DNA of 64,000 bases from Polytrichum commune (taxonomy: Eukaryota; Streptophyta; Polytrichopsida; Polytrichales; Polytrichaceae): assembly GCA_950295325.1 (NCBI GenBank), contig OX485807.1, positions 4,404,501 to 4,468,500 on the forward strand, in the 5' to 3' direction. This document shows, one piece after another, positions 26,130 to 48,382 of the stretch (position 1 is its first letter; every line of letters starts with the position of its first letter). The notes beneath the pieces are model-generated. The model had not been told where the DNA came from and did no database searches. It was given only the letters and a program-made list of their open reading frames with translations. The position numbers and the translations under genes are program-made.

Positions 26130-29056
26130 TCACTTAAAATTCTTTTTGGTGTCCCAACCTAAATAAGTGCGGAGCACGTTCTGGTCTTTAGTGCTTGGAC
26201 GACAATATTCCACCTCAATTTGACGAAAGTTGGGGCTAGTTCGAACAAAATTGGGTGAAGACAATGCTTTTACCAACCAAATTGGTTTGGGATGCTCCTC
26301 ATCCCCTGCTCGTACGAGGACCAAATACCCTTCATGGCAATCAACACCTACACGAAACGACGGTGCCGGTCGATTGCGGGCAGGGCCAACGTAATGCTCG
26401 TCCATTGCGAACTCTTCACGAACGTCTCCATTGCTGAAAAACATAGTATCGGACTCAACAACCGTCAAACGACTTTGTGGCCAAAATTCTTGTGTCAAAG
26501 TCGTATGGGTGTCGCCACCAAGTGTCATCAAGGCTGAGCGAATGCGATCCCAATACGCGATCAACGGTTCATGGGTATCTCTAACACGTCTTGTGATGTC
26601 CTCCTCGCACAACTCTTTCCAATATTCAATGAATCCGGATATGCCTTTGATGATTTCCGGCCCATTCCTCATGGGTTCGGGTATGCAAGGCTTTGGTTCC
26701 CCATCCGGGACCAAACATTTCCCATCATTGTCTTGACGCCATACGAGTATACCATCATCCGGGCCCCAATTAGGAGATGTGCACAAAAGCTTGAATTGCA
26801 TGGCCGGGAGACCATCGTCCCTCATATAAAATCGGAATTGTTGTGCTTTGGTATGCCCCACCAAACGGTCCCCTCCCTTCAACATGTATGGCTTGATGAA
26901 GGCCTTGAAATTTGGTACTTCCTCAATCAAGTGCGGAATTACTGGCATATGGTCCAAATCCATATACGATTTCATAAGAAGAGGTATGGTTGGAAAATCT
27001 TCTTCATGCAACTTCATGCTCCACCGTCCGAATGATGCATCAATGTCGTCGTGTGTATGTCCCACCATCAAGAAAGACACAAACACCTCCTTGAAGATTC
27101 CTTTCGCCACGAGCAATGACCAAAAACAAAATACGTATCGACATTTGTTGTCCTTCGGACAATTATCAAGTTGAACGTGGAGAGTTGGAGGCAATGGTTT
27201 TGCACAAATGGGCTCTCCGGGTGGTTTTGGCAATGACGACATACAAACCTCCTTCCCCGCAAGCACTGCCTCATAAAGGGATGTGGTTCCACAACCATCA
27301 AAAAGTGCACGGGAAGAATGTACCGGTGGCTTCTCAAGATCGCGCAACAGTTTTGCAAATGAACCCACCGTGTGGTTAGCATCCCCAGGGTAAAAATCCA
27401 AACCATAATGGGCATACTTTACGTCCCCATGGCCGTGGGCAATCATACCTGGAAAAAACAAACGATGCGTGACCAAAATAATCAAATAACCACTAAACGG
27501 ATGTATGGAGTTGGACATTTGCCAAACACACCCAAAAAAATTGGATAGACTTTAAACACGTAGTTGTGATTTCATACAAACCTGTGACAGCTACGGGCAA
27601 CTTGAAGAGACCATCCGTGGCCTTTATTTTGCGTGCATAACAAGGGCATGCGGTTTTGGCGTGGTCCATTTTATCATGGATGACTGTTAGAACCTCTGTG
27701 GGCCTCATTATAGATAGAGCACGATTCTTATAGTAATCTTGACGGTGTGCCTCTTGATTGTTGACATGTTCAATATATTTTTTCTGGTGTCTGGAATGAG
27801 ATTCAGTGCCTATGGGGTGGGCGTCTCGAAGACCTTTGTATTTTTCACACGTCGTACATCTAGCGAACTTGTCCCCGGGTCTTTTCAGAATGTATTCCGC
27901 AAACTGCTGGTTTTTAATCACACTCAACTTGGACAAAGAAATGAGCCCACATCCCGCTATGCGACCCACTTCATTGATGTCCGTTAAGATGTTCTTCCAT
28001 TTTGTGCCCGTGGGCAACACCATTTGAACAACCTTCTCCCCTGACGACAATGTCCTCGTCTTGTGGGGCATTGCATCGGCCAATGGTACTATGATGGTGG
28101 ATAGTATCGCGGACGCTTGCAGTGTAGCCTCCCTAGGTTTCTTTGTGCCCGAGTTGCCATGAAATCGAGAGCGGCGACCCAACGATGAATACTTTCGAAA
28201 CCTATAAAAGTCAGCCTTGGAGACGGCGTGGATGGTATACCACGCTGTACAACACACATCAACATTCTCAAGTGTCACCACCTTATGCCCATGGGTATCA
28301 AGGTGCAAATTTCTGTGGACCTCGAGTTTCTTAGCCGACCTCATACGAAAATCCGCAAGCCACATCTCTTGACGCAGAGATCTAATTTTCTCCCGCGGGA
28401 AAAATTGGCAACATTTCCTCGCGCAACAATCCTTGCCGGACACTAGACGGATAGATTCGTCCCCCAAAAGCCGATCCCGTCGACGCTCCTTATCTCCGCG
28501 AGGCACACGGTTTGAATCATATCTACGGAGGCCTTTGCGAGGACGTGTTGTGGCCAACAAAGCTAATTGTGTTTGCTTATGCCGCCGCTCATGATCCCAC
28601 AAACTCACTTCCTCATGTAGAACTTGACGAAGCGGCCATCGACGCAAAGAAAATCTCCATGTCACCGGGACCTCTACCGGAAGCAAAGAGTTCAAGATGC
28701 ACACGCCAACATCATCGAGACCTAGGGCGTTGGCATCGACACAATCACGGGGATTGGAATTTCTACATATGCCATCTGCCACCGGGACACCAACCTCGTT
28801 GAGTAGAACGACATCAAGGCCAACCCATTGCTCCCTCCCGAAACCGGCACACAACGGAATGTCATCGTGGTCATCTCCGGAATGCAGAGATTGTTCGTGG
28901 ACTTCCAAAGATTCATGGGAGGATGTATCCACAAACACCCCCCTCACGTTTGGCACACCATTACTATCTGCCGACGGGGAACACAGTTCACATTCAGCAT
29001 CGGATGACGATGCATACGTCGATAACTCCAATGAACTATCACCCACATGCAACGCC
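26130..29056 (-). CDS. DUF7869-type transposase-like protein, two exons
   Basis: Exon 1 ends ACAG|GTTTGT near 27582 and exon 2 begins TTCCAG|GTATG near 27451. They join in phase 1 across a ~130-bp intron, continuing one frame of over 900 codons. I start at the Met at 29056 (MALHVGDSSLELSTY) because the frame further upstream runs antisense through an unrelated palindrome-bearing repeat. In order come Cys-rich CARKCCQFF, CTTCEKYKGLRDAHP, IHDKMDHAKTACPCY, then LHVQLDNCPKDNKC and VGHTHDDIDASFG. These three acidic/His blocks (about 27.65, 27.16 and 27.06 kb) are the hallmark of the DUF7869 proteins repeated in many eukaryote genomes and suggest an RNase H-fold transposase. The intron and frame are intact, so the copy may be recent. 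I could not find its terminal repeats. Function is inferred from family pattern. Confidence 0.7.
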
Positions 29057-29299
29057 ATACCGCCTAGACCAACCACCAGGAAATGATCAACCCAACCACC
29101 ACCGCAATGCATACAAGAGAGGATAGAATATATGTGGAGATAAATGGCCCAAAATTGACAAACAAATTTTGGTACACCATTGGAGAACCTCACGCACAAA
29201 GACGAACACGCGTCCCAAAAAAACGTTTTAAGCATACGTCTATGAGCCTCACTAATGTAAACAATACATGGACAAAGAGGAGAACAATCGTTAGTCGTC

Positions 29300-29765
29300 C
29301 AGGAGGGCCCTGCTGTTCGGACCAGCGCCTGTCCCCATACAACCGACGACGAAATCACAAATCCGAGAACGCCACATGCATTTACGAACGTGCGTTCGTG
29401 ACCTCAGTAACTTCTCCATGTGCATCCGGCGGCCTTCGAGATCCCTCATCTGAGAGCACCCTTAGGAATATCGGTTTTGTAGGTCAAAATACCATGTTGA
29501 CTTAGGAACCTGCGCGATATACTATCACAAGAGAACACTTGTCCATACGCACAAAAGTAGTAAATCTGCGGATGATGCCTGAATCAACTCCAACAATATT
29601 TTGAACACTGAACACCTCCATATTGCAAATTTGATTATGTTGACTTTTGCATACCTACCCATTTACGAACGGACGTTCGTAAATGGGTGCGACCCCGTGT
29701 TCACATCCTTCACGGACGAGCGATGAGCATATTTTTCTTGCTATTCTGTGTTCGTAAATTACTGC
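29300..29765 (+). repeat. Degenerate copy of the intergenic block at 38420-38990
   Basis: Colinear with 38420-38990: GGAGGGCCCTGCTGTTCGGA, the CCTTAGG...TTTTGTAGG segment, ACTATCAC, the TTGCATACC...palindrome...GGTGCGACC segment and GAGCATATTTTTCTTGC all have counterparts in order. It carries two 16-bp palindromes (29384-29399, 29665-29680). It is the surviving piece of a second copy of the large element seen at 33.6-48.4 kb, or of a duplicated arm of the same element. Confidence 0.7.
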
Positions 29766-30301
29766 CATACTGATGTGCATGAATGAAGATGTGTTGCTGG
29801 ATGCGTAGACAATAATGACATGTATTTACGAACGTACGTTCGTAAATTCCTGACCATCAGGTACCAATAGATACGGGTCAAATAAGTATGTATGATCCTC
29901 GAAGGCATATTTACGAACGCATCCTCGAAGGCATATTTACGAACGCACGTTCGTAAATGATTGTCATGGATTAAGTGCATGTGACTAACCATATGAGTAC
30001 CTCAATCCAGAACATGCTCTCATGTGGGATTTACGAACGCACGTTCGTAAATTACCGACCATCAGGTACCAATAGATAAGGGTCAAATATGTAAGCATGG
30101 TCCTCGAAGGCATATTCACGAACGCACGTTCATAAATGACTGACATGGATTACGTGCATGTGACTATCCATATGAGTAGCTCAATCCAAAACATGCTCTC
30201 ATGTGGAATTTACGAACGCACGTTCGTAAATCCTTACCATGTACAGGTCCGAATCGTTTGTCTAAACCTGAAGCTCCTCATCTTTACGAACGTGCGTTCG
30301 T
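29384..30301. repeat. Cluster of 16-bp palindromes ACGAACGNNCGTTCGT, left block
   Basis: Copies start at 29384, 29665, 29828, 29939, 30033, 30118 (degenerate), 30212 and 30286, plus a half-site near 29913. Most are extended on both sides by TTT/AAA or ATTT/AAAT; at 29665 the symmetry extends to CCCATTT...AAATGGG. The central dinucleotide varies (TG, GA, TA, CA), as expected if two half-sites rather than the centre are under constraint. Between them no coding sequence is visible. Confidence 0.95.
29840..30225 (+). repeat. Two tandem ~190-bp units, each carrying palindromes
   Basis: CGTTCGTAAATT...GACCATCAGGTACCAATAGAT, CCTCGAAGGCATATTTACGAA and ACATGCTCTCATGTGG occur in the same order from about 29840 and again from about 30045. 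In the first unit CCTCGAAGGCATATTTACGA is itself doubled (29898-29945). Each unit ends on a palindrome. Confidence 0.85.
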
Positions 30302-32490
30302 AAAGTTCCGGTATTTACGGCGGTATATGCGGTAGGTACAGCCTGTACTGTACCTGGGTGGTGTAGGGTTGGCGCACACGAAATGGCTTGAGCGCGTTCG
30401 GTGAGGTCTGTAGAGCGCACACTTGCATGTGCCGCTGAAAAGAGCTTTGTTGTGGGGGGAAGAGCTTTAAGTACTTCACCCCGCTGGTTCAAAATCCCTT
30501 GGATGCTCTTTAAAAAGCGGATTCCCGCGGCCTTCTTTGACCTGACAATCTCCCATTCCATCCATGCGGAATTATATAAATAGCATTGTCATGTATGGAA
30601 CATGCCTTGCATGCACGCCAACATATTGAAAATATATAAATCGGTTGCACACCTTAGTTGTGACCAAGGTCTCATCGAAATATATGTATATACATACATA
30701 TATATATATATATATACACATAATGTCTAAATATGAAGATGGCTAACATTGAATATTTAATTATTTGCGACTAAGGTATGAAGTCCAAGTTAATTGACAA
30801 TTGATGCCTAATAAAGTTATGAATGTCGAAGTCATATATATATATATCTATACATATATACACATATACACACATACACATATACACACACACACACACA
30901 TAATGAGGTCAGAGTGGCTAAGAACATGTTGCGGACGCCCCTAAAATTATAGGTATCATATGTTTCACATCAAAAAATGACCGTAATATGGTTACCAAGT
31001 GCATGAATACAACTAAAAAATCGGGTTAATCCATAATGGCTTGCACTAGGGTAGATTGAGGACATTATGAACTAATTATACCTAATAATATATGTAAGTT
31101 AGGTCTTCTTTCAAATGGTATCTAGGTGTGAAAATAAGGAATTAAAATGGCATGAGTAGGAAGGATGAATCAATTTGTAATGCTGCATAGTATGATAGCG
31201 TAATGATCATTGAGACTTGAAACCATACTAGCTACCGTAACATTGAATCATAGTTACAATTATTATGTGTTTGACGTCCTATTGGAAATTGAATTTTCGT
31301 CCACTTGTTGTAAGGGTACGGATACACATTAGTTAAATGTTTATTAGATCATTGGTGATATTTATAGTTGAATGCATTGTTCAATTGTTAGTTTAAGTTG
31401 ACATATGATTAAATGAGTTGAGGTCCTATTGGAAATAGATTTTTAGGGTTTGGGGAAATGCATTATTAATTTGGAATGGTGCATACAATAGTATGTACTT
31501 ACAATTAATATATGTTTTGCATCCTATGAGAAGGATGTGCATCATCATAGCTTAAAGTGTTGATATAAATTGAAGTCTTAAGACATGCATGTTATTATAA
31601 TAAGATCGTGGATTGTGTGATGAAATTTCACTCAGAACTATTAAGGTGAAAGAGAGAATATTTGAAATTTCACTTATCACCTAAACCAAAGTTTTATATC
31701 AAATCTATTAATTTGGAATGTAAAAATGACAATTGGCATCATTATCAATTATTATAGTTGTTATGAACGGAATTAAGCATTCTCCATCCACCCAACATTG
31801 GTAGACCAATTTGACCTGCCCTCAGAAAACAACATGGCCACATATAAGAAAGGTTGGTAAGATAAAAAGATGCAGGGATGTAGGGTTTAGGGTTTGCGGT
31901 TAGGGTTTAGGGTTAGGGTTTGGGGGTAGGGGTTTAGGGTTTGTGAAAGTTGTGTATGTGGTATTTGGGTTTAGGTTCTAGATTGTTACTAGGATACATT
32001 ACACACACAAACAATATTGACTCCTCAAAAACCCTTGTAATTGCACTAACTTCATTCATCGCAAGCTCGTAGTTGATGCTAGCAAAATAGTTGACCACTC
32101 CAGAAATGCATTAGTTCAAGCTAACACCTAATATTGGAACTTGAATTGACATCCTATCGTATAGCAACTCTGCGCAATCTCATATTATTATGAATTCCTT
32201 TTTGCATGTAATATTTATGTGAGGAACCATCGAATTAATTGAAAGATATCTAGCTCTTACATAAACTATATTTTAAAACACCATATACATATCTTTGGGG
32301 GTGGATTCTACATTGACAACCTAGGAAATGACATGCATTGTTTATTACGAATTAACTGAGCATATTTTTCTAAAATATGTTTACAAGGAATCCAAATGTA
32401 GAGGTACTAAGGAAAGAAAACGAGTAAAATTCATGTATTTTAACTAAGCTTTTCAAGTTAATGCCCTAAACGCGTCCATTACATATAAAT
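30302..32490. other. AT-rich stretch with simple repeats and telomere-like repeats
   Basis: No gene is seen. TA/CA-rich simple repeats lie at about 30675-30720 and 30835-30900. TTTAGGG-like repeats lie at 31877-31942 (listed separately). Confidence 0.5.
31877..31942 (+). repeat. Interstitial telomere-like repeat (TTTAGGG)n, degenerate
   Basis: About eight imperfect copies of the plant telomere unit run together (TAGGGTTTAGGGTTTGCGG, then TTAGGGTTTAGGGTTAGGG and TTTAGGGTTTG). They lie internally and are not a chromosome end. This supports a green-plant source. Confidence 0.85.
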
Positions 32491-32531
32491 ATGTCAAAAC
32501 ATGAGAATAACATGAAGGGTTCCAATATACA

Positions 32532-32615
32532 ACCATCTCCCATCTCCCATCGCATCCCATCCCATCCCATCCCTTCCCTTCCCATCACCTCCCATACCAT
32601 CCCATCCCATCTCCC
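32532..32615 (+). repeat. CCCAT microsatellite
   Basis: Imperfect CCCAT/CCCTT repeats. ORFs through this stretch on both strands translate it as low-complexity sequence and are not genes. Confidence 0.9.
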
Positions 32616-32782
32616 TCCTAGCCCTAGCCAGTGGAGTTGTGCCACGTGGCAGGTGCTGGGAAACCCTAGCGGCGCACCTACCTCCCCGCGCCCCTTCCTC
32701 TTCTCCTCATTTGTCATTTCGAGGAGAGGAGGAGCGGAGCGCTTAGAGAGCGAAGCTCTTGCTTTTTTTAGTCTTGAAGTTT

Positions 32783-33120
32783 TAAATTAGTTTTGTTGCA
32801 AGTTTTGAGAGATTTCAGATTGAGAGCTTGTGTGAAAGCTTTTGAGTTTGTAAAAGCTTTCATTGTGAAAGCTTGTGAGTTTGTGAAAGCTTTCAGTGTG
32901 AGAGTTTGTGAGTTTCAAAAGCTTGAGAGCTTGAGTAGGAAAGCTTCAAAGTTTCGGATTGAGAGCTTGAGGGTGATCTTTAGAAGCTTGAGAGTTTAAG
33001 GAAGCTTGAGAGTTGAAGCTTGAGAGTTTAGGGAAGCTTCAGAAGTGAAGCTTGAGAGTTTAGGGAAGCTTGAGAGTTAAGGGTTTGCTTAAGAGTTCAG
33101 AAGCTTGAGAGCTACAAGCT
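32783..33120 (+). repeat. Degenerate tandem AGCTTGAGAG(TTT) array
   Basis: Units such as GAAGCTTGAGAGTTTAGGG recur many times with irregular spacing, grading on the left into TTGTGAAAGCTTT variants. The frame running through it (32793-32999) only reflects the repeat. Confidence 0.85.
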
Positions 33121-33486
33121 TGTGAGTTTTGTGTACATGGGAGTATACTAGGGTTTGTATATAAGCTGTGAAGGCTTGAGGTCTGCATTAGAGAGTTATT
33201 TGAGTGTGCATTTGAAAGGCAATTGAGTGTGCAGTTGTGAGGATTTCTGGGATTTTCAGAAAGAGAAGAAGCAGGGTTTGAAATGTGCAGCATTTCAATG
33301 TAATTTGTTATCCTTTCCAACTCCTCTCACATTCTGAAAATGTTGCTTCTTGAATTCAATTTCTTTTGTTACATGCAATGTGAATTATCACTTTCTTCTT
33401 CATGTTTCATTCTGCATCTCATTCTGCATCTCAATTGCTTTATGATTCAAAATTTGTATCATTCTGACCAAAATTTTGCAGGCACG
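33120..33486 (+). promoter_or_regulatory. Possible promoter and 5' leader of the palindrome-associated gene
   Basis: TATATAAG occurs at about 33158 on the plus strand, followed by a ~300-base non-coding, T-rich stretch and an acceptor-like CCAAAATTTTGCAG ending near 33480. The next large gene downstream on this strand begins at 34194. It could equally be the end of an old LTR. This is pattern only. Confidence 0.25.
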
Positions 33487-33599
33487 GTTGCAAGCAGAGT
33501 AGCTAATAAGTGAGTTATATACATATATGTATATATACGTATTTGTATATATACGAATACATATATGTACGGACAGGGGATCCCAAAACCATCACATTT

Positions 33600-34162
33600 A
33601 CGAACGCTCGTTCGTAAATGGACATACACTGCATACCGAACGTGCGTTCGTAAATACACACTCCACGTTCTTTGAAATGATCTATATTTACGAACGCACG
33701 TTCGTAAATATACTCAAAATATCACTCAGATGGAACCTTAACTTTAATATGAACCTCTACGAATATCTAAAGAACAAATATAATTTTGCGAACACCAATA
33801 AAACAAATCACATGTACTTACGAAAGATAAATCAACCAAATATCCGAAAAGATAGTCCAAATGGACATACTTACGAACGCACGTTCGTAAATAAATCCAA
33901 ATCTATAAAACCTATATCTTTTACGAACGATCGTTCGTAAAAATAACCAAATATATTACAAATACATTCATGACGAGTAGTCTCTTTGATCTTCATATCT
34001 TTTACGAACGCTCGTTCGTCAACTCAATACTAAAAATTTATATGATCTTGCAACCCCTCATTTACGAACGAACGTTCGTAAATATAATTACATCAATTGC
34101 AAAGACGCATTAACACTGCGTAGTCTGTGGGATATGCATGTCATTTACGAACGTTCGTTCGT
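33600..34162. repeat. Cluster of 16-bp palindromes upstream of the DGQH/MTase-like gene
   Basis: Copies start at 33600, 33636 (one mismatch), 33690, 33873, 33923, 34004, 34064 and 34147, eight in about 560 bases. The last lies 32 bases before the presumed start codon, just ahead of TTCTGTTGCAG. Extension by TTT/AAA is present on most. They lie in AT-rich DNA, so the GC-rich sites stand out sharply. Confidence 0.95.
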
Positions 34163-34193
34163 AAAGTCACTAATTCTTTATATTCTGTTGCAG

Positions 34194-37100
34194 ATGGCAA
34201 GATCAAGCAGAAGCGCCATTGAGATGTTCGCGGTGAAGGTCGATGGCCTTCCAGAGTCGGTGTTAGACGATAACGGCAACGACAACTATGTCCCCAAGGA
34301 AGACTTCATGGGGGAGTGGACGGCACTGCCAGAGAAGATCGGGGACGGCCTCTTCTGCATGCGCTTCACCTACGAGCTGGAGACAAGACCGGACCAGCCC
34401 GAACAGTGGGTTCAAATGAAGACGTGGGAGATAGAGTCCATAGAGGCCCAGGGGGAGTATGTAATTCTGGACATGAAGAACAAGAAGGATCATATCAACC
34501 TCTTGTTGCATTTCCAGAAAAATACCTTCTCCTACCAATACGCCACCAATAACGTAGCGAAAGATGCCAAGCACTTCGACCTGGACGGCCTCTTCTCCAA
34601 ATATGCGTTGAGCCCATACTGGACGGCAAGGAAATTGACCGCCCTTGCATTGAACATCTCCAAATACAACAGTGTGGTCACTGAGGCAAACAAGAAGAAG
34701 AAGAGCCCCAGGAAACCATCCACATCAGGGGCAGGAGGATCTAGAAGTGCACCCAGGCCTGTGCCTTCCGCTAGCAAGGCGACGGAGGGCCCCAGTAGAC
34801 ACTCCACGCCATCGAAGAGGACAAGGGAGGAGATGGAGAAATCGGGAGTAACAGAGACCGCGGAGGTGACCTCGCCTGTCGTAATGCCCACCCCCTTGAA
34901 AAAGGGCGAGAACCCTGACGCTGTGAAGGCCACGAGGATCCTTCGAGACTTCAACAACTACTCGAAGGATTGCTGGCCCATGGGACGCCACTTCACATTC
35001 AACGTGGACTGCTTCAAGTGCGAGATGTCCCCCAACAAATGGGTGGTTTAGTCTCGCGAGAGCGGTGGTGTGAAGTGGCAGATAAATAATCTAATGAACA
35101 ACGTCAAATGGGACAGGCAGACCGTTTGCGTCATGCCGAAGGGGCTGACATCCCGTCCGACGGAGAAGGACTGGCCACGGATCCAGAATGGAGAGTTCTG
35201 GATCATAGACGGCCAACACAGCTTGGAGGCGTCCCAGATAATCCTCAAGGACGACAACTTCCAGCATGAGCTGAAGGAGGACTTGCGCTACTGGAAGGCG
35301 TTCTTGGTGTGGTCGGACGATTGGGACAAGCTGCGGAAGATATCCACCTTCCTCAACTCCGGCAACAAGATCAAGGCCTTCGAGGCGTCATGGGCAGCCA
35401 ACATAGTGGCTGCAAGGGACGTCTGGGTCGCCCACGGGTGCCCCCCTAAAGAAAGGGAGAACGCGAAGACGCCATCTCCACAATGGAAGGTGAGTTTACG
35501 AACGAACGTTCGCAAATATCTTTGACATTCAAACTTACGAACGTGCGTTCGTATTTTGTGCGTTACTGATGCCTTTCTTGCTGCAGGCATTCTGCGACGC
35601 GATGGTGGACAAGTTCTCCTCCATCGACATGAAGTCTACAACAACCAAGTCTGTCCTGGAGCTCAAGGGTGAGCTCCGCCTCATCTGTTGCAACAGGGAC
35701 ACTTGGGAGTTGTGGACACAATTTTTTGATGCGCACAGTTCGGGCGATCTGGTCAACCCCGACACCGAGGAGAAGTACAGCGCGGAGAAGACCGGGGAGG
35801 CCCCTCCACTACTGAGGGAGTTCTTCATGTCCCTTCAAGGGTTAACAGAGTCCGAGTTGCAGAGGTGCGCGGTGCATCTTGTTGGGAACACAATGGGAAG
35901 AACCATCCCATACCCGAAGATATTTTTGAAGAGGCCAAGACACAAGCCCGGCACGTATTCCATTAAGGAATGGTGCGAACACCGCAAGCTGAAGACTGCT
36001 GCAATGAGGGAGTTGAGCGCCCTAATACCAGAGTACGCACTCATCCTAGCCGACGGGGACATTAATTGGGCCAGCTGGAAGATGTTCAAGGTCGATTACA
36101 ACATCTCCGGACCCTCAATGCGTTGTCTTGTCAAGGAGCACGCCTCCATTTTGAACTAGAAGGGGAACAAGAGGACAAAGAAAACTGAGACGGATCCCCA
36201 GGAGGTGGAGCAATACAGAAGCTTTTTGGCGCGGAAGAGGTTGGCCACATTCGAAGGAGTGGCCAGATTTTGTTTGGTGACAACCGGAGTGGAGAGGGTC
36301 ACATTTTCCAAGTGGGACCGGACCATGAGCAGGGCCGAGGTGAGGGAGGATCGACGGGGGTGCCCATTTGCCCTGATCGATTTCAGGGGGATCCCCGGTG
36401 CGTCGAGGCAGGGGGGGAAGGACATACCTTTCTACGACCCCTTCATGGCCAAGTTCAAGGAGCACAAGTCTCCGGACATGAGGGAGCCTCACGTTTGGCT
36501 GTGGATAGTGGAGCAGGAAAAGCTCTCTGCTGTAGTCGACCTGTACGAGAAGACGATCAAATTCGAGTACATCATCTTCCACAGCACTTACGTGCCCGCC
36601 AAGACGGAAGGGATCGTGGCCATTAACGAGGCCAGGGGAAACAAACAGGTGGGGGCGGTCAGCCTCGTCTTCTTGACGTACAACGCGCTTCGGAATGGGC
36701 GAGCCCCTGTCAGGGCGAATACTACGTTCAAGAAGATCTACAGCATCCCCCATCCCCCTCCTAAGGATCTGCTGCAGGAGACCTTGTACACTGTCTTCCC
36801 GGCGATGGAACTCAGGTTGGAGTTCTACGTCTCCGTTTTGCAGAGCGTGGCAATAAGCGGAGAGACCGTGTACAACGTTTGTGGAGGCAACAAGTTCATG
36901 TACGCTGCGATGGTAAGCTCTCCAACTAATATTTACGAACGCTCGTTCGTAAAGTTCACCTCAACTTGTCTTGGGTTTTGATGACATTGTTTCTCGTCGT
37001 TGATGTTTACGAACGCACGTTCGTATATTCTAACGTATTTACTTGAATCTCAGATGCTGGGGCTGGCCGTCAACAGCTTCATTGAAGCCATCGACGAGGA

Positions 37101-38472
37101 GGACTTCCACGTGCACAGGGCGAAGGCCTCCACGATGGACCTGGAGGACATGTCCCTCCCGAGGACGGACATCAACATGCCCGTCGACGAAGGCATGCCC
37201 GCCATGGAGACGGACGACGACGAGCCCGCGCCCTCCTACAACGTCGAGGCGATCCTCCGATCCTTGGACGTCACTCCTCTCCGCATTTTGGCGCCGTCGG
37301 GAAATCCATCCGACGTGCAAGGGACTCCGGGTGGATACACGGGGTCGTCGGCGGGGACAACCCAAGATGTCCTCCCCGCGAGAACGTCTGGAGCGGAGGC
37401 ATTCGGCACTCCCGGGGGATGCTTGACATCCGTGTCGCCCAGGCCGATCGTGGTTCCCAAGATGGAGAACCTCGACCTTCTGGACCAACGGTCCCGACCG
37501 ACGTTAGACCACTACCGCAACACGAGGCGGAGGATGAAGAAGACCCCCTACGTGGAGCTGCCTCCGGGGGCAATCATAGAGGTCTCCGATGAGGACGAGG
37601 GCGACATGGAGATCATGGTCGAGCTGGGGGTAGACTTTGACAAAAACAAGAGGGTCAAAGAGGAGGCGTTGTCCGTCGCCAAGCTCGAGCAAAAGATGAA
37701 GGAGGACATGGCGAAGGCGGCAGAGGAGAATGCCAAGAAAATGTTCGCAATTCAGGAGGAGCTGAGGCAGTCCAACGAGAAGACGGACGCCATCCTCGCC
37801 ATGCTCCAGCGTATGCAGAGCTTCTCGGCGCCCCCCCAGCCGGCCTACCCCTTCCCTGGAGGATACCCCTCCCAATCCCCTCCACCAGGCATGTTCACCG
37901 GAGGGCCTTCCCGCCAGCAGGCGCCCCACCCTACGCCTGTTGGCACTCCTCCGCCCCCAGAGGTTCCCTCGACCACCTCCCACGATGCTGTGGCGGCGGC
38001 CATCTAGGAGGACGAGGATTTACGAACGCGCGTTCGTGAATCTTCAGGTCCTCCAATCCTCACCCCTCCCCCTTCAAGGGTAGGACTGCCCTCATACACC
38101 GATGCGTCGTCTTTCACCGTCATCCCCAGGGTAGTAGACAGACATGGCGATGACTCTGCGCGACACACTGACATGGTCATTGTGGAGGACACGCAGGGGA
38201 GCCCCAATGACGCACCATGGGTGCATGGGATGGACGTGGAAGAAACCCATGCGGCGTGGATGGAGGATGTCAGGATGGACGCGCTCGACCTGGGCGCCGA
38301 GGAAGAAGACGCGCTGCGCATCCAGGCGACACAGGCGTCTCAAGCGGAGCGTGAGGCAGAGGCCATGGAGACAGAGGCGGCTGCAGCTGTGGAGGTTACG
38401 AACGCACGTTCGTTAATCGTTGAGGAGGGACCTGCTGCTCGGTCCAGCGCCGCTGCCCCTCCCCCCCGATGA
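34194..38472 (+). CDS. DGQH-motif (ParB/DGQHR-like) and degenerate DNA-methyltransferase-like fusion, three exons
   Basis: Exons 34194-35489, 35587-36912 and 37054-38472 join in phase 0 at both introns, giving about 1,346 codons. The frame is open except for three in-frame TAG codons at 35049, 36157 and 38005. Residues ~1-285: unknown domain and basic linker (KKKKSPRKPS). At ~335-345 WIIDGQHSLEAS resembles the DGQHR/ParB-type motif. At ~690-880 a region resembles the beta-class order of DNA amino-methyltransferases: CPFALIDFRGIP where DPPY is expected, VSLVFLTYNALRNG, HPPPKDLL (like HPTQKP), then VYNVCGGNKFMYAAM and GLAVNSFIEAID (like the SAM-binding motif). The catalytic DPPY is missing, so activity is doubtful. 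The C-terminus has a coiled coil (KLEQKMKEDMAKAAEENAKK) and Pro-rich tail. GC-rich codon use is unlike the flanks. Domain calls are by motif only. Confidence 0.6.
35490..35586 (+). other. Intron 1 of the DGQH/MTase-like gene, with two palindromes
   Basis: AAG|GTGAGT to CTGCAG|GCA, 97 bp. It contains palindromes at 35498-35513 (one mismatch in the right arm) and 35537-35552, which fill a third of the intron. Confidence 0.85.
36913..37053 (+). other. Intron 2 of the DGQH/MTase-like gene, with two palindromes
   Basis: ATG|GTAAGC to CTCAG|ATG, 141 bp. It contains perfect palindromes at 36935-36950 and 37009-37024. The intron splits the putative SAM-binding motif. Confidence 0.85.
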
Positions 38473-38955
38473 CGAGGTAACTCTCCTCTGAGAATACCAT
38501 TTTTTTACGAACGCGCGTTCGTAACCTCTCTAACATCGCGATGTTTTTCTCTTCATCGACATCCAGTGGCCTTGCGAGAGCCCTCTTCAGCGGTCCCCCT
38601 TAGGGCCGAACAGTTTTGTAGGACACGGCATCATTTTGCCTTAGGAAAATATGATAGACTATCACGTGAGAAATGTAAATATTCAACGGATTAATATATG
38701 AGCCCATGTTATCTGCATCGCGTTGCTTCAAATTCTCTGCCCTCGACCCCTTCTCGTATATTGTATATGTTGATGAGATTATGTTCATTCTTGCATACCC
38801 ACCTCATTCGTGAACGCTCGTTCGTGAAAGGGTGCGACCCACTGTCCACCTCATTTGCGAACGACCGCTCGTAAATGTACGTGTAGCCGCGCTCACGAAC
38901 GAGCGCTCGTAAATGATGCGCACTGCCCCCGCAGCCTTCATTCACGAACGCTCGT
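38022..38955. repeat. Palindromes in the gene tail and the following spacer
   Basis: Perfect 16-bp cores start at 38022, 38398 and 38507; more diverged ones are near 38810, 38852, 38894 and 38943. The sites at 38022 and 38398 fall inside the open frame past the third TAG. The cluster near 38.8-38.96 kb is the counterpart of the site at 29665 in the duplicated block. Confidence 0.85.
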
Positions 38956-39094
38956 TCGCAAGTGTGCGCTTGAGCACATTTTCCTTGCACTCTCCTCACT
39001 TCCTCGTCTTTCCCCATAATGCACCGTCTTCATTTTCTACGCAACATTTCATTATTGGATCATAGAATTAAACTAGTCGAGTTGTTCATCACAG
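38473..39094 (+). other. Spacer between the MTase-like gene and the phosphatase-like gene
   Basis: Non-coding, with palindromes as listed, ending in an acceptor-like TTCATCACAG before the phosphatase exon at 39095. The same block, diverged, is at 29300-29765. Confidence 0.6.
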
Positions 39095-39267
39095 GACCCC
39101 CCGGAGATAGGTTGCAACCCCTCGACCAGTGGACCTCCCACCCGGCACAAACCTTTCATCGTTTTTGACCTCAACGGGGTGTTGTGTCACACCCAACACA
39201 TCCCAAGGGTCCCCACACGTCCCTTTCGTCACCCCGACGAAAGGGACTACGACGGCGAGCTCGACAC

Positions 39268-40210
39268 TGTCGCGACCCTTGCTAGTTTTTCTCCACTTAG
39301 CTCAATCGCTTTCCAACTCTAGCAAGTGTCCCGAGCGCTAACCTGCACATCCCACGCACATGCATGGTTAGCTCCCAAAACCGCGGACCTTCAATCCCAT
39401 ATTTGGTCACCAAACCCTCCTACACATGCATTCGGGACTCTTTCCCCTTAGTAGGTAACCCATCGCTAAGGTGGACTTCCATCCATGGAAGTCCACTCCC
39501 TACTTGGTCATAGTGTTGCTAGGACAACACTACAACCACCCGGAGCACATTGCCAAGTATGCTCCGGGGGGGGGGTCGGTCGGCAAAGCCGCCTCACCCA
39601 TATAAGCCTCTAGGACTTTTGGCGGGGCCCCTCCCCCACCGTCAACATCCCTTTTGTCTCTCTACCAAGAGTTGGGGCCAAGTAGACATTTTCCCTTAGC
39701 CGCTGGGTCTAGAAGCCTCCCTGCAGCTTCAGACCTTCATAACTTCCACGTGCGGTCTCTGAATCTAACAACCAACCACTCTATCGTCATCTACATTTCA
39801 CGTAGATCCCTATGGACACCTCACTTGCCCTATTCGGGCAAGTATTGAGGAAGTTATGCCTGTTTAAACCTTTGCAGTCCCGGGAGCCACTCCCAGGCCC
39901 CTGCTGTTCCAGGGCGCTGTCCCGGGACAGCATCCCACTCAAAGTGCCATATCTCCTAGCTCACACCTCAGATTGAGGTGTTCTTTAGCATTCTAGAATC
40001 GGGACGCCATAAGCTACTCATAGCTTATGGCTTTACCCTCATGACTCCTAGTCTTTGTGGGTGGGAGGCGTTCTAAACGCCCGGGGCCCTCACCCACCTT
40101 AGGATCACTTGGTCCCTCTCACCAATGGCGTCACAAGTCCCGGGTGTCACTCCGGGGTCCCCCTTGTGCCCATGGTGTTGCGGGCACTCCTCATGGAGAG
40201 GTGCGCGACA
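39268..40210 (-). repeat. 3' LTR of the chromovirus
   Basis: 943 bp, the same length as and apparently identical to the other LTR. ORFs within it, such as the one at 39654, recur identically at 46116 and are not genes. Confidence 0.95.
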
Positions 40211-41038
40211 CTCACCCCCACCAAATGGAGTCGATGCCCTCATCGACTATACTTATAGTCGGGCACACCAATTCTCAAGTTGCCATCCTCTCTTGGTGTG
40301 GCATTGTGTTTTCTTTAGGGCGCTACCCCCACAATGCATCTTCAAATTTGGCAAAGTCTCAAAGGTGTCGATCCTAGGTGGTCCGTTTAGGAAAACCCCG
40401 GACATCTTGTCCAAGGACCTAAACTACACTAGACTCACCTACTTTGAGACTTACTTGGGTGACCCTTCCTTTGGGGCCACCCAAGTTAGGCTCCACTAGC
40501 CTAACTCTATCATTTTGACACAACTAGGTTGGACCTCAACGCTTCTACTAAGTTGCCTCGGTTGCCACTCCGAGATGGCTTTCCTTTGTTAAGCCACGTC
40601 TCGATCGCACGGGGGTGATGCCAAGTCCCGCCCGACTTGGCTCCCACTTTGCTCTTTCGAGACATGGGTTCATGACGCCCATGCGCCAACTCGCATTGGC
40701 TCGTGGGTTGCACTTTTATAAGCACGCGCCATCACCTTGCCCCCGCCCGGACAAGACCATGGCTAAGAGGTTTTTGGTTTTATCCAAGACCCCTCTAAGC
40801 CATGGTCCCCATTACTCGGCCTACCCAACCTAGTTTAGCATATATATTCCTCCCTCTTCCACTAACCAAGCACAAGTACAAGACTAGGACCTCATCTTAT
40901 ACTTTTCTCTTTGCACCACTAAAGTTGAACTTTATTGCCTTAAGCGAAAATGAACAAGTACATAATGTGGAGGACATTGCCTCCAAGTTAAGGGTGCTAC
41001 TAACATCTCTCCCCCACTAAAGGAGATTGATGTCCTCA
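40211..41038. other. 3' untranslated part of the chromovirus
   Basis: About 830 bp between the polyprotein stop and the 3' LTR, with no coding capacity of its own on the element's strand. It ends in the candidate polypurine tract. Confidence 0.7.
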
Positions 41039-44000
41039 TCAATGCCTACGTTTCCTTTTGTTGGACCCTCTAGCCCTAGTTTCTTCAAAGCGCTTCACTA
41101 TCTCCTTGGCATTCACCATGTCCCTTGCCGCTACCCAAGTGGCTTCTTTCTCATGAAACCCCCGCCACTTCACCAAATACTCCTTTCCTTTTCGCTTGTG
41201 GTTCCTACACTTGAGGATGCCTTCTACCTCGTACTCCAAATGATCTCCTACAAGGTCGGGAGGTGGCCTAATCACTTGCTTACGATTAGGCCATAAGGTG
41301 TCTTCCTTGAACGGCTTTAATAGTGAGACATGGAATGTCGGATGCACTTTGATCTCGGGCGGCAACTCCAACTTATAAACATCTTTGAAAACTCGTTCAA
41401 CAATCGGAAACGGACCCGCAAATTTTGACATGAACTTTGGAGTGAGGCCTTCGGGCATTGTGAAGTTTTTTACATTCAACAACACCTTTTGGCCCACCTC
41501 ATACTCCACTTCGCGTCTTCCGGCATTGACTTGTTTTTCATAGCGTTTTTGGGCTTTCTCCAACAACAACTTGGTCTTCTCCAAAACTTGTTCACGCTTT
41601 TTGGCTAAGTCCTCACCATCTTGGTTGAACTCTAGTGTTGAATGTGCCCCCTCGAGAGCTAGGTCGGCGGGTTGGAGCGGATCCACTCCATAAGCCACCT
41701 TGAATGGCGATTGCTTGGTCGCCGAGTGCGTGGCCGCATTATAACTAAACTCCGCTAAACCCACATAGTCCGCCCAATCTCGTTGGTCCGCACTCACAAA
41801 GTTCCTCAAGTATTGGTTCAAGACTCCATTCACACGCTCGGTTTGGCCATCCGTTTGGGGATGGAAGGCCGTGCTAAAGGTTAGTTTTGTTCCAACCTTC
41901 CTAAAGAAATGCCTCCAAAATGCGCTTGTGAACTTCGGATCTCGATCGGATACAATCACTCTCGGCAACCCGTGATGCCTCCACCATGCATTGAGAAAGA
42001 GCTTTGCGGTCTCCAAAGCGGTTGCCGTTCCCACGGTTGGCACCATATGCGCCAACTTACTAAACCGGTCCACCATCACCAAGATGGCATCGTAGCCTCG
42101 TGACTCCGGCAAACTCGTGATGAAGTCCATGGACACACTATGCCATGGCCCCGGCGGGATAGGCAACGGTTGCAATAAGCCGGCTTGCTTTTGATAAGAG
42201 GCTCGGTTTAATTGGCATTTGACACAAGTCTTCACAAAGTGGGCGATTTCTTCTTTCATGCATGGCCAATAATACCTCCTTGACACCGCCGCTATGGTGG
42301 CTTTTTCTCCTCTATGGCCGGCGATGGGACTATCATGTTCCTCCTCCAAAACCAATAGCCTCAACTTGCCTTGTGGCACATACACCCGACTTTGCTTATA
42401 CTTGAGCAATCCGTCCACCAACTTGATCTCCTTAAGCGCCTTGCCTTTGCGAAGCTCGCCTAGAAACACTTGTGCTTCGGGATCGTTGACGTACCCCTCC
42501 CTTAACTTACGATGCAAGTCACATTCACCTTTGTACATTAGCCACAAGCTTTGACTTGTGCCCATTTCTTGGAACTCTTCACGTCTACTTAACGCGTCCG
42601 GCACCACATTATCACGGCCCGGTTTGTGGATCAACTCCACGTTCATAAGCGCCAAGGTATCGTGCCACCGCAATTGCTTGGCGCTCACTTGCGTTTGTGT
42701 CTCGAAATACTTCAACGACACGTTGTCCGTGTACACCTTGGTCTTGTGCAACCCCAAATAATGTTGCCACGTCTTCAAGCAATGTACTACGGCGAAGAGC
42801 TCCTTTTCATGAGTTGGCCATCGTCTTTGACAACCATCGAGTTTCTTGCTCTCATAAGCAATGGGCCGTCCATCTTGCATCAACACTCCGCCAATTGCAA
42901 AATCGCTCGCATCCGTATGCACCTCAAAAGGCTTGTCAAACTCCGGGAACTTTAGTACGGGCGGCGAAGACAATTTGCTCTTGAGCTCCCAAAAAGCTTG
43001 GTGACAAGGTTCGTCCCATTCTTGGGATACCCCTTTCTTCAACAAGTCGGACAAAGGCCTAGCAACCTTAGAAAAATCTCGAATGAAGCGGCGGTAGTAA
43101 TTGGCTAGGCCAAGGAACGACCTAAGCCCTTTTTGAGTCGATGGCCGCTTCCATTCTTGAATCGCCTTTACCTTTTTCATGTCCGGCTTAATTCCATCCT
43201 TGGTCACCACATGGCCTAAGAACTCAATTTCATTTTGAGCAAAATCGCTCTTCTCCCCGTTAGCATACAACTTGTTGTCCCTTAGTTTTCGAAGCACCAC
43301 CTCAAGGTGCCGTGCATGCTCCTCCGCCGTCTTGGAATACACCAAGATGTCGTCGATATAGATTATTACGAAATCGTCGGTTTCCTCTCGAAAGATGGTA
43401 TTCATAAGGGTTGTGAATGTCGAGGGCGCATTACACAACCCGAAAGGCATCACCAAAAACTCGTAAGACCCATACCTTGTGCGGCACGCCGTCTTTTCAA
43501 CATCTTCATTCGCGATTCGAATTTGATAATACCCGGATTTTAAGTCAATACGACTAAAATACTTAGCTCCCGCCAATCGGTCGAAAAGATCATCAATCCG
43601 AGGTAGCGGGTAGTTGTTTTTGATAGTCACCTTATTCAAGGCCCTATAATCGATGCACATGCGTAGCTTGCCATCTTTTTTATCCACAAAGAGCACCGGG
43701 GCCCCATATGGTGATTTACTCGGCCTAATGTAACCTCTTGATAGCAAGTCATTGAGTTGTTTCTTCAATTCTAGCAACTCTTTTTGGTTCAATCGATAAG
43801 GTGCCTTGGACGGTGGCTCGGACCCCGGGATCACCTCGATCTTGTGATCGACTTTTCTCGTTGGCGGTAACTCTTGGGGCAACTCGTCGGTGAGTACATC
43901 CTTGTACCTCCCTAATACATCGCGAATGTGCTTTGGAGGAGGCCCATCGGTTTTAGCCTCCTCGTGAGTTCTTTGGTGTTGCTCCATTCGGACCACCACA

Positions 44001-45679
44001 ACCATTTGTACTTTGGACATTCGGTCTGTCGAGACCAAATTCAACTTGCCTCCTCCCGCCATAGGAGTCCTCGTCAACTTTAAAGTCATTTCCTTGCCAT
44101 TACGACAAATTACAAGCCGCACCGGCTTGCGCCTCACATCCACCGTGTGAGTCTCGAAGAAGGTGTCCCCCAAAATGAGGTCCACCTCATCCATTTCACA
44201 AAGTGTGAAATTCTCCTTAAACTCCAACGTCCCACACTTTAAGTTCACGTTCAACGCTACCTCCTTCGTCTCATGCGGCTCGCCCTTTGCGAACCGCACG
44301 TTAATGGGCTTGCCCGCTCTACCCGTTGGCAAGCCCAATTCCTTCGCAAGTTTCGGGCTCATGAAGGAGTGCGTTGCCCCTGTATCAACCAAGCATGAGA
44401 CATTCCGACCATTGATTTCGGCTTCAAGGAACAAAAGACTTGGCCTTGGCTTAAGGCTACTAGCCTTGGCCACAAAGCCACCTTCTAGCATTTGGTCGGC
44501 GGTACAACCACGATTTGTCTTGACACTCACCTTGTTGTCGGGGCACGCCGCTTGAAAATGACCAAGTTTGCCACATTTGTGGCACCGCTTGTCTTTCATG
44601 TCGCCTCCTTTAATTCCTACATTGGGTGGTTTTCCTCCTTGGTAGCCACCCTTGGTGGAATTTGTCCCGTCGGGTTGTCCTTTGAAATGGTTGGATGGCC
44701 CAAATTTCTTGCGCTCTTTGCCTCGAGACATATTTCGACTCGAGCCGCTTTGTTGTGCGGGGCCGCTTGACTTTCTTTCGGGGCCGTCGGCTTCAATTCT
44801 CTCCGCGATCTTAATGATCCCCGTCACGTCCTCGGGAAGCTTTGGAAACTTGAACAAGGCGTCTACCACCCACTTTTGTAAGCCACCTAAGAAAATGCAT
44901 CTCTTGGCAAATTCATCCATCTTAGGTGTAGCATTCATTTGGGCGTTAAAATCGCGCACATAGGCCTTAAGGGACCCCGTGTGCCTCATTTGCACCAAGT
45001 TCATTCCCTCCCGCAATTCTTGGTACTCCGGCGTGAACCTATCAACAAGCAATTCCTTGAAGCCGACCCAAGTCAAGTTTGCCACCAACTCGGGCTCTTG
45101 TTCTTTTTTGCTCGTCCACCATTGGAGCGCATGGTCTTTCAAAAAGGTCACCGCTATGGAGACCTTGTCGTCTTCATCGGGCCTTTGGACATCGTAGTAG
45201 TTGTCCATTTCCAATAAAAATTCTTTGACCTTTCTTGCCTTACCAAGCCCCGAAAAGGTACTTGGCATATTTACCTTGGCCAACTTCTTTGTTGAAGAAG
45301 AAGGCCTAGCCCCTTGCATCATAAGGAGCTCGATCATTTTGTCTTGGCGAGCTCTCTCGTCCTTGACACGCTTGAGCTCTTGATTCACGGAGTCCATGAA
45401 CTCAAGCATTTTGAGTTGGAATTTTAATCCAACATCACCACCTTCCAAGCTTTCGGGCGCATTTGGAAGTCTAGCCCCCGAATTTTCTTCGAGGTTTTCG
45501 GGACCCCTTTCTAGGGACTCCTCCACTTCCTCACCGGTTGCACCATCATCCCCACCATTGTTAATAGACTCAATGGCGGGGTCAACATCCTCTTCAACAT
45601 GATCTTTGTTCCGTTTTGAGCGTCGCAACTTTTTAGAAGTCCCCGCCTCACCATCGTTACCCGCACGTTTGGTAGCCAT
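41039..45679 (-). CDS. Chromovirus Gag-Pol polyprotein, 1,546 residues
   Basis: A single open frame, with the start Met just inside the primer site. Approximate domain order: Gag core (~140-300); zinc knuckle [14 protein letters not shown] (~365); aspartic protease with DTGATHSF (~430); reverse transcriptase with the YIDDILVYS active site (~775); RNase H with [11 protein letters not shown] (~919); integrase zinc-binding HRGEKATI...CVKCQ; integrase core with [18 protein letters not shown] and [15 protein letters not shown] (~1240-1286), keeping the D,D,E residues; and a C-terminal chromodomain ending [13 protein letters not shown] (~1476-1523). RT before integrase defines Ty3/gypsy, and the chromodomain places it among chromoviruses, whose integrase tail can target histone-marked chromatin. 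Length is normal and no frameshift is seen. Confidence 0.97.
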
Positions 45680-45729
45680 CTCTCCTTCAAAGTGCTAGCT
45701 CAAAGACGAAACCCTGCTCTGATACCACG

Positions 45730-46672
45730 TGTCGCGACCCTTGCTAGTTTTTCTCCACTTAGCTCAATCGCTTTCCAACTCTAGCAAGTGTCCCGAGCGC
45801 TAACCTGCACATCCCACGCACATGCATGGTTAGCTCCCAAAACCGCGGACCTTCAATCCCATATTTGGTCACCAAACCCTCCTACACATGCATTCGGGAC
45901 TCTTTCCCCTTAGTAGGTAACCCATCGCTAAGGTGGACTTCCATCCATGGAAGTCCACTCCCTACTTGGTCATAGTGTTGCTAGGACAACACTACAACCA
46001 CCCGGAGCACATTGCCAAGTATGCTCCGGGGGGGGGGTCGGTCGGCAAAGCCGCCTCACCCATATAAGCCTCTAGGACTTTTGGCGGGGCCCCTCCCCCA
46101 CCGTCAACATCCCTTTTGTCTCTCTACCAAGAGTTGGGGCCAAGTAGACATTTTCCCTTAGCCGCTGGGTCTAGAAGCCTCCCTGCAGCTTCAGACCTTC
46201 ATAACTTCCACGTGCGGTCTCTGAATCTAACAACCAACCACTCTATCGTCATCTACATTTCACGTAGATCCCTATGGACACCTCACTTGCCCTATTCGGG
46301 CAAGTATTGAGGAAGTTATGCCTGTTTAAACCTTTGCAGTCCCGGGAGCCACTCCCAGGCCCCTGCTGTTCCAGGGCGCTGTCCCGGGACAGCATCCCAC
46401 TCAAAGTGCCATATCTCCTAGCTCACACCTCAGATTGAGGTGTTCTTTAGCATTCTAGAATCGGGACGCCATAAGCTACTCATAGCTTATGGCTTTACCC
46501 TCATGACTCCTAGTCTTTGTGGGTGGGAGGCGTTCTAAACGCCCGGGGCCCTCACCCACCTTAGGATCACTTGGTCCCTCTCACCAATGGCGTCACAAGT
46601 CCCGGGTGTCACTCCGGGGTCCCCCTTGTGCCCATGGTGTTGCGGGCACTCCTCATGGAGAGGTGCGCGACA
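45730..46672 (-). repeat. 5' LTR of the chromovirus
   Basis: Carries the promoter side of the element on the minus strand. It is followed immediately by the tRNA primer site. See the partner LTR. Confidence 0.95.
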
Positions 46673-47382
46673 GACACCCTCATTAACCGCAAGGCTGTCC
46701 GCGCCCGTCCCGGCTTGCGTGACTTCCTTCGCGAGGTGGTCGAGTTCGCTCACGTCATTGTGTGGAGCTCCATGGTCATGGAGAACACGGAGCCCATCGT
46801 CCACTTCTTTTTCCGCGATCTCCCGAGCCCGTGCCTCGTCCTCGGCCAAGAGGACTGCGACGAGCTGCTCGACGAGAAAGGTCAACCGGTGCCCAAGTTT
46901 GGCAGTCGGGGCGGAGGACAACAGTTCCTCAAGGTCCTCCGCTCGAGACTCTGGCGAGGCGTCCCCCGTCTGCAAGGGACGCCGCACGGGTGGTGGCCGA
47001 CTCCAGAGAACACCGTCCTCATCGACGACAGCCCCACCAAGAGCGTCTTGAACCCCCCGGGAAACGTCATCTTCCCGGACACTTGGACCGGCGATAGGCA
47101 AGACACATTTTTGGTCGATAGGCTAGCCCCCTACCTTAGAAGGCTCGTGCTCCACGCCGGTAGCATCCCATTTTTTGTTAGGTCCAACCCCTTCGGCAAT
47201 GCGGCACTAAGCCCCCGCGATAATGTATTCTAGAGCATCATGAGGCTCGCCAAACTCAATAAATTGATTTGAAATGCCTCCATGTCTTTGCTTGTATCAT
47301 GTGGTTCACATTTACTAATGCTTGCTTCATTTTTGGATGTCTTTTGTTGTTGTGATTGTTGTTGTTGTTGTTCTTGCCCATA

Positions 47383-48382
47383 GTCTGCCCCCATATGCGA
47401 CGCCCCTGTGGTCGACGACCCTTCCCGTCCCCTCTCGCCCCCTGCCTCCCCTTCCCGCGACGTCACGGACTTCCAAATGCCATCCCTCTACCAGTTCTCG
47501 GCGGTGGACGCGGCCTCGGCCGTGGATTACTCCCGCGACATCGGCATCGACGACGGCGTTGTCAACAGCCCGCCCCCCGCACTTGTTGCCCGCGCCTACG
47601 CCCCGTCGCCCTCCCCCCTCTCCAAGGAGAAACGGACGCTCGTTCGTTTGGGGCACCTCTCGCCCTCTAAGGACGACGCCGTCGCTCGTCGCGGGCCGAG
47701 CCGGCGTCTCCGCATGGAAGGCCCCCGTTGCCACACCTCCCCCGCCGACTCCGTTCCTCCCCCCGCAACGTCCTCCGCCATCGTGAGCCCTCCACGCCTC
47801 GACTCCCCCCCCGCCACTCACTAATACAATAGTTCCATCGGCTCCGGATGCTCCCGTCGACGCCCCCCTCGTTCCCACCGTTCCCCGCATGAACGTCCCC
47901 AAAGCCAAGGTGCCCTCCTCAACCTTAAACCCCTTTCCCGCTTTTGCTTCCCTTGTCTTCCGTTTGCGTGCCGTTCTCTTTACGAGTGCCCATCCCAAAC
48001 CGCCCTCATTATTTTCCCCACTCCATTCCTATTCTTATCTTCCTATGACGTTGTTTCGCAGGTGGCTACCCGCTCGCTTGGTGCCCGGCCCTCCTCCACG
48101 TCCTCCTTGGATAGGCACGCCCTCAAGGCCGCATCTTCCGAGTCCGATCGTTGTCTGGCCCTCCGGAGAAGCGCAAGACGTTCCCTTTCGCAAACACCCT
48201 CGCATTCTACTTATAATACCACCTCTTACAATTCGGGAGCGCGTCCTGAAACATGCAAGAACGACACATATTCCTGTCCAGGCAACACACAAGGATACAG
48301 TCGTGGGCCTGAGATTTTTAGAGCCATGGAGGCTGCCAAAAAAAAGGACTTAGCCGCCAAAAAAAATAGTGGGTCGGACTAG
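47383..48382 (+). CDS. Proline-rich, low-complexity exons downstream of the phosphatase-like gene
   Basis: Two GC-rich plus-strand segments look like exons. 47383-47824 follows a TTGCCCATAG acceptor and contains RPLSPPASPSRDV and LVRLGHLSPSKDD; 48062-48382 follows TTTCGCAG and ends MEAAKKKDLAAKK. Composition is Pro/Ser/Ala-rich and disordered with no recognisable domain. At 47634 the coding sequence contains a 15-of-16 match to the palindrome (ACGGACGCTCGTTCGT). They may be the 3' part of the phosphatase-like gene or a separate cargo gene; exact exon ends are uncertain. Confidence 0.35.

Follow-up and report, generated by a model that had tools for sequence, protein, structure and literature searches.

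A palindrome array around a gene with a predicted ParB-like fold in Polytrichum commune and its possible part in self-recognition by a multicopy gene family

The 64,000-nucleotide stretch of Polytrichum commune DNA analyzed here (contig OX485807.1 of assembly GCA_950295325.1, positions 4,404,501 to 4,468,500; hereafter the window) contains a gene on the plus strand (34194 to 38472), modeled as three exons from reading frame and splice signals, the truncated tail of a second copy, and a palindrome, ACGAACGNNCGTTCGT, repeated around and within them (Table 1). The palindrome occurs in 20 exact copies and in 28 copies with two or fewer mismatches. All but one of the 28 lie between 29384 and 38959, the exception being a lone stray at 47632, while dinucleotide shuffles of the window contain no exact copy and at most one with two mismatches. 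The array described in an earlier note on this DNA thus exists, and the window holds no second cluster, as that note had stated. Among perfect palindromes with 7-bp arms and gaps of 0 to 6, the arm ACGAACG with a gap of 2 occurs 20 times; TACGAAC with a gap of 4 (16 occurrences) and TTACGAA with a gap of 6 (14 occurrences) are the same sites read further outward, and the commonest other arms occur four times each at most.

Alignment of the 54 half-sites indicates a fuller site of approximately ATTTACGAACG-NN-CGTTCGTAAAT. G at −6, A at −5, C at −3, and G at −2 are invariant (54/54). T at −10, a position that had no role in site selection, is present in 52 half-sites, T at −11 in 45, and A at −12 in 37, and the site is therefore longer than the 16 bp previously given. 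The center was also said to vary freely, but it is biased: CA/TG accounts for 12 of the 27 sites and CT/AG for 6, few half-sites (2 of 54) have G as the first central base, CG is found in two sites, and GC, one of the centers listed earlier, in none. Same-base counts between the two arms at positions −11 to −2 differ by no more than 0.7 from the expectation given by base frequencies. Two half-sites that are each contacted by one subunit of a protein would be expected to lack such covariation, and an RNA stem kept by compensatory changes would not.

Exons 1 and 2, together with exon 3 through 38004, contain none of 19 sites while making up 3,573 of 5,428 bp. In both introns, no more than 25 bases separate the 5′ splice site from the first palindrome. 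The noncoding location claimed earlier holds as far as exons 1 and 2 are concerned, but the sites at 38022 and 38398 fall in a frame that is still open past the TAG at 38005, which may be the natural gene end or a lesion, and their coding status is ambiguous. Similarly, sites do lie upstream of, in both introns of, and downstream of one gene, as described, but the eight on the left belong to the diverged tail of another copy. GCAG directly precedes the ATG, and the upstream sites are perhaps inside an intron of the 5′ untranslated region. Some left-hand sites were multiplied by tandem duplication (29824 to 30231; repeat families D9 and D11), and a diverged tandem repeat (70%) spans 33871 to 34192.

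The second copy is a 3′-tail remnant (remnant area, 29288 to 30301), of which 29288 to 29722 aligns with 38410 to 38867 at 66%; its sites are 3.3 kb from the next palindrome. A gene on the minus strand with a match to DUF7869 occupies the place expected for the body of this truncated copy. Two site pairs can be aligned between the tails, and their arms are identical at 26 of 28 positions versus 300 of 419 in the flanks (one-sided Fisher test, P = 0.008; arms counted by hand), which favors conservation of the palindrome over drift of its flanks. The repeat at 33871 to 34192 was kept out of this comparison because palindromes may themselves anchor its alignment.

Three protein searches returned at least 119 distinct relatives of the gene product (12 in the first, 72 further ones in the second, and 35 more in the third); the second scored only the 7,992 candidates sharing most words, and the list is a lower bound. 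The relatives come from the sequence archives ena, jgi, lgn, ncbi, and src, are annotated only as “hypothetical protein,” and carry no precomputed Pfam domain. No protein relatives were found in viral contigs or prokaryote genomes by nonexhaustive scans with two to six short peptide patterns each, and the two palindrome types scanned for in viral contigs (groups I and III, below) had no exact match there. At the first of the three in-frame stops of the window copy, all TAG (35049, 36157, and 38005), the relatives have R, and at the second mostly L, although P0010 has Q and P0014 has S; the window copy is therefore broken. A reading of TAG as a sense codon was considered and dropped, as these residues fit ordinary lesions. 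No homologue of exon 3 turned up, and no search was aimed at it.

The structure of exon 1 was modeled on relative P0016, whose exon 1 is 95 to 98% identical to the exon 1 pieces of the window. Over residues 281 to 410 the block means of the predicted local distance difference test (pLDDT) are 73 to 94, and ParB, Noc, KorB, and Srx take the top ranks in Foldseek and VIA-align searches. As modeled, exon 1 has the fold of the ParB/sulfiredoxin superfamily; the N-terminal domain, which precedes this fold in the same exon, has a weak PH/PTB/FERM-like match. The motif GQH is present in 72 of the 119 relatives and DGQHS in 68, none has R within GQHxxxx, and a loose G[EQ]xR is found elsewhere in nine. 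GQHSxxA appears to occupy the place of the ParB arginine patch GERRxRA. A model containing exon 2 reached a mean pLDDT of 45.5, with no fold match under an E value of 0.7. A Pfam scan of the window open reading frames (ORFs) and exon pieces detected no ParA-type ATPase or transposase. Neither DUF1985 nor DUF287 appeared when 60 exon 1 and 19 exon 2 members were compared with Pfam at E values up to 1, and the exon 2 members gave no Pfam match to a DNA methyltransferase, exon 2 being poorly modeled in fold. Of 17 proteins, two contain the pattern [DNSH]PP[YFWHL], P0012 in an intron peptide and P0005 at the N terminus, and neither has it in exon 2.

Many relatives are gene predictions on short contigs that read into the intron following exon 1 or exon 2 or start before an exon, and because they do so, their peptides expose intron DNA of the relatives. 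At least one such nonexon peptide of four or more residues is present in 73 of 118 grouped relatives (P0122 was left out). In the window's group, the peptides LRTxVRK, YERxFV, and FTNxRS correspond to the three frames of TTTACGAACGNNCGTTCGTAAA, while other groups have FTDARP, YGRASV, and LRTRVRK or VWVDRPK, FGSxDPN, and LGRSTQT. A blind test was made on 88 peptides cut by fixed sequence anchors, with all 4,096 6-bp half-sites, central gaps of 0 to 4, and any frame. (The exon 1 peptide of P0015 was left uncut at the exon 2 boundary and overlaps its exon 2 peptide; peptides of P0101 and P0110 were missed by the script, which is why only these two give matches in coding parts, four in all.) At a gap of 2, the best half-site was CGAACG in group I (19 of 24 peptides; runner-up, 10), CGGACG in both group IIa (11 of 20; runner-up, 3) and group IIb (4 of 5; runner-up, 2), and GGGTCG in group III (17 of 38; runner-up, 5). 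Gaps of 1 and 3 never scored above 3. A gap of 4 rereads the same peptides (ACGAAC, 17; ACGGAC, 11 plus 4; TGGGTC, 17), as does a gap of 0 with other readings, and the gap is therefore better fixed by the window DNA and the variable middle residue than by score. The palindromes predicted to lie behind the relatives' peptides are TTTGGGTCGNNCGACCCAAA in group III and TTTACGGACGNNCGTCCGTAAA in group II.

With 7-bp arms, 17 of 24 group I, 11 of 20 group IIa, 4 of 5 group IIb, and 17 of 38 group III peptides fit their own type, no peptide fits a foreign type alone, and 200 shuffles gave at most one match per type. Considering only peptides after exon 1, the counts are 8 of 9, 10 of 13, 4 of 4, and 16 of 32, respectively. 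Peptides preceding the start codon match the palindrome of their own group in full in two relatives (P0016 and P0110) and almost so in four more (P0008, P0011, P0053, and P0100), and the intron 2 peptides of P0006, P0007, P0009, P0012, P0013, and P0014 are compatible with it. Further types are hinted at: in group IV (P0119, a single case), VSLGRAA followed by a stop would fit TTAGGCCGNNCGGCCTAA, and in group IIa, LRPRGRK of P0021 and P0030 fits ACGGCCGNNCGGCCGT, a possible lead to another type (CGGCCG scored 3 of 20).

In a tree of 58 exon 1 proteins (those with DGQH and a length of 350 residues or more, a few odd ones omitted), groups I, IIa, IIb, and III each form one clade with bootstrap values of 96 to 100. 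Identity is about 40 to 50% between groups I and II and about 32 to 36% between groups I and III, and the positions of introns 1 and 2 are identical in members of I and III. The intron positions are thus old, and the palindrome seems to have been kept inside clades and replaced between them, its geometry and inner CG being retained. That palindrome type follows protein group is expected if the protein binds the palindrome as a dimer.

These features point to a multicopy, transposon-like gene family whose protein probably recognizes its own DNA through the palindromes, each group having its own copies. The ParB/sulfiredoxin-fold protein would bind as a dimer to the 7-2-7 palindrome across the noncoding parts of the element, with the exon 2 part perhaps supplying DNA contacts; protein and palindrome would have changed jointly, such that each group addresses its own copies. 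The likeliest use would be to keep the element's chromatin accessible or to oppose silencing by the host, as VANC proteins do for VANDAL transposons, with autoregulation and marking for transposition as close alternatives. Mobility is suggested by the truncated second copy and the number of relatives. The earlier proposal of a dimeric DNA-binding protein or self-marking signal gains support from the ParB/Srx-fold gene within the array and from the three groups with three predicted palindromes of the same geometry. It is possible, if somewhat doubtful, that the family is a eukaryotic counterpart of ParB-parS, in which the ParB-fold protein of selfish elements would load at palindrome clusters and spread over its own copies; an arms race against silencing by the host would have split the protein-palindrome pair into three or more private addresses.

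Several observations weigh against self-recognition by the encoded protein. No transposase, terminal repeats, or target duplication was found for the element, and the window copy carries stops. GERRxRA, which binds cytidine triphosphate in ParB, is absent among the 119 relatives, which would predict that no such nucleotide clamp forms, and no DNA-binding domain was identified by structure model and by fold and profile searches, the only helix-turn-helix match being to a PHROG profile in 1 of 19 exon 2 members (E = 0.2). P0005 of group IIa has no intron 1, its exon 1 running straight into exon 2. The drift comparison comprises two site pairs, and a wider site definition in the script gave 36 of 44 for the arms. 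The relatives' palindromes were deduced from peptides and not from DNA, and by the strict test 39 of the 88 peptides fit none (7 in group I, 9 in IIa, 1 in IIb, 21 in III, and the only peptide of IV); 28 of these are longer than 8 residues and 11 have 4 to 8, with near misses in P0010, P0016, P0048, and P0097. Because of codon degeneracy, some of the fitting peptides agree with both types I and II (10 of 17 in group I, 1 of 11 in group IIa, and 2 of 4 in group IIb), although 7 of the 10 ambiguous group I cases hold a second peptide fitting I alone. CpG retention was considered as a sign of an unmethylated element and rejected: values for the Gypsy element (0.92) and the DUF7869 gene (0.91) match those of the exons (0.73 to 0.88), with 0.44 to 0.51 in the AT-rich surroundings, and retention is therefore not specific to this gene. 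Finally, clade-following palindromes would also arise if a third factor bound them and genes and intron repeats were inherited together. This possibility, together with the lack of fit in half of the group III peptides after exon 1, slightly lowers confidence in self-recognition and in the ParB-parS counterpart and raises that in a palindrome that does not serve the encoded protein.

Among the alternatives, an operator set for autoregulation, through which the protein would repress or adjust expression of the gene encoding it, as KorB does on its plasmid, with no role in silencing or mobility, is unlikely but survives best. The 600 bp preceding the ATG hold eight sites, each intron starts with a site, and KorB, which is described as acting on promoters from distal operators (PMC11790492), is among the nearest folds. 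However, eight sites in the geneless remnant tail and seven at or beyond the gene end are more than an operator alone would be likely to need. The chance seems about as low, or a little lower, that the sites gather the protein on the element for excision, synapsis, or upkeep, in the manner of parS or of the subterminal sites bound by transposases. The ParB fold and the sites in both flanks would agree with such a transposition or partition complex, as would the bacterial parS TGTTTCACGTGAAACA, described as likewise a 16-bp palindrome (PMC7022226), whereas sites are also internal to introns, no transposase or ParA-like partner appeared among the Pfam-scanned ORFs and exon pieces, and element ends were not found. 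It is improbable that the palindrome is a tiny self-copying repeat or host-factor site not serving the encoded protein: some sites did multiply by tandem duplication, and binding by that protein is a deduction, but elsewhere in the 64 kb there is a single stray, and palindrome type tracks protein group. Hairpins in pre-mRNA with the palindrome as stem, for splice control or RNA binding, are more improbable still: the first intron sites are near 5′ splice sites and all sites might be transcribed, but the arms do not covary over the 27 sites, six of the seven imperfect sites hold a broken pair (judged by eye), and sites occur far downstream and in the geneless tail.

For self-recognition by the encoded protein, the best analogue is the anti-silencing system that VANC proteins provide for VANDAL transposons in Arabidopsis (PMC5735166, PMC10398659). 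VANC21 is reported to occupy introns and noncoding parts of its own VANDAL21 through a dense 9-base motif and to strip DNA methylation, its relative VANC6 uses other motifs, and VANC targets grow by tandem repeats (PMC5735166). Shared features are motifs dense in the noncoding parts of the element itself that differ between relatives (as putative targets) and tandem repeats. In contrast, VANC has DUF1985 and DUF287, neither of which was found in the window gene family, and its motifs are 8- to 9-mers in one orientation, whereas the sites here are palindromic; loss of methylation has been shown for VANC and would be hypothetical for the window protein. Nearest in kind are ParB-domain accessory proteins of algal transposons. 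The 21.5-kb Sola1-1 element of Ectocarpus encodes a ParB-like plus DNA methyltransferase protein, and its authors suggest accessory proteins that bind and modify their own transposon (PMC12477816). A ParB-like domain within a repeated eukaryotic element is common to both, but exon 2 here has no methyltransferase family match, and the available text on Sola1-1 names no target array (PMC12477816). Bacterial ParB, Noc, and KorB share the fold of the N-terminal domain and short palindromic targets (if the window protein binds its palindromes), while the window gene differs in having introns and in lacking GERRxRA and a ParA partner among the scanned ORFs. En/Spm-type plant elements carry subterminal arrays of short repeated sites bound by an element protein; the window sites differ in being palindromic and also internal, with no transposase in the Pfam-scanned ORFs. 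Among the papers listed by the literature searches, none described arrays of palindromes accompanying a ParB-like gene of a eukaryote, and the Ectocarpus work came closest.

If self-recognition is correct, the family would offer protein-target pairs whose specificities shifted jointly on a single fold and whose targets are legible in the element itself, and a specificity code of the ParB fold and its coevolution with DNA would become directly testable. It would supply target sites for the self-binding suggested for ParB-domain accessory proteins of algal transposons and a second, unrelated instance in which an element recognizes itself by sequence as VANC does. A further use of the several palindrome types could be as separate address tags for DNA imaging or epigenome editing.

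Table 1. Features of the window, in window coordinates
Feature	Position(s)	Strand	Remarks
DUF7869 gene	26130–29358	−	DUF7869 match (E = 8e-40) in ORF 26130–27518
8 palindromes	29384, 29665, 29828, 29939, 30033, 30118, 30212, 30286		3′ tail of second, truncated gene copy
TTTAGGG-type repeats	31886–31939		Short run
8 palindromes	33600, 33636, 33690, 33873, 33923, 34004, 34064, 34147 (span 33600–34162)		Just upstream of start codon
Exon 1	34194–35489	+	N-terminal domain and predicted ParB/Srx-fold domain with DGQHS; in-frame TAG 35049
Intron 1	35490–35586	+	97 bp; palindromes 35498, 35537; position common to P0004, P0015
Exon 2	35587–36912	+	Conserved, no family or fold match; in-frame TAG 36157
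Intron 2	36913–37053	+	141 bp; palindromes 36935, 37009
Exon 3	37054–38472	+	By frame only; charged, low-complexity C terminus; open to TGA 38470
3 palindromes	38022, 38398, 38507 (span 38022–38522)		At and after gene end
4 less exact palindromes	38810, 38857, 38895, 38944 (span 38810–38959)		3′ tail
Frame with NIF-like start	39077–39322		Start FDLNGVLC
Ty3/Gypsy-like retrotransposon	39268–46029		With chromodomain; ORF 41039–45679 (− strand)
NIF-matching ORF	46571–47233		E = 5.5e-13
Three consecutive ORFs	49684–54248	+	392, 595, and 322 amino acids

Beside the array lies a Ty3/Gypsy-like retrotransposon, whose ORF has 16 Pfam rows at E values up to 0.01. The 100% identity of its two 300-bp stretches, at 39268 and 45730, suggests that it inserted recently. 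An ORF beside this element matches NIF (NLI interacting factor-like phosphatase), and the start of a frame between 39077 and 39322 resembles the start of that ORF by eye. Further downstream, the three consecutive plus-strand ORFs have no Pfam match above the cutoff and give the impression of a transposon gene with introns or lesions. The TTTAGGG-type repeats resemble the plant telomere motif.

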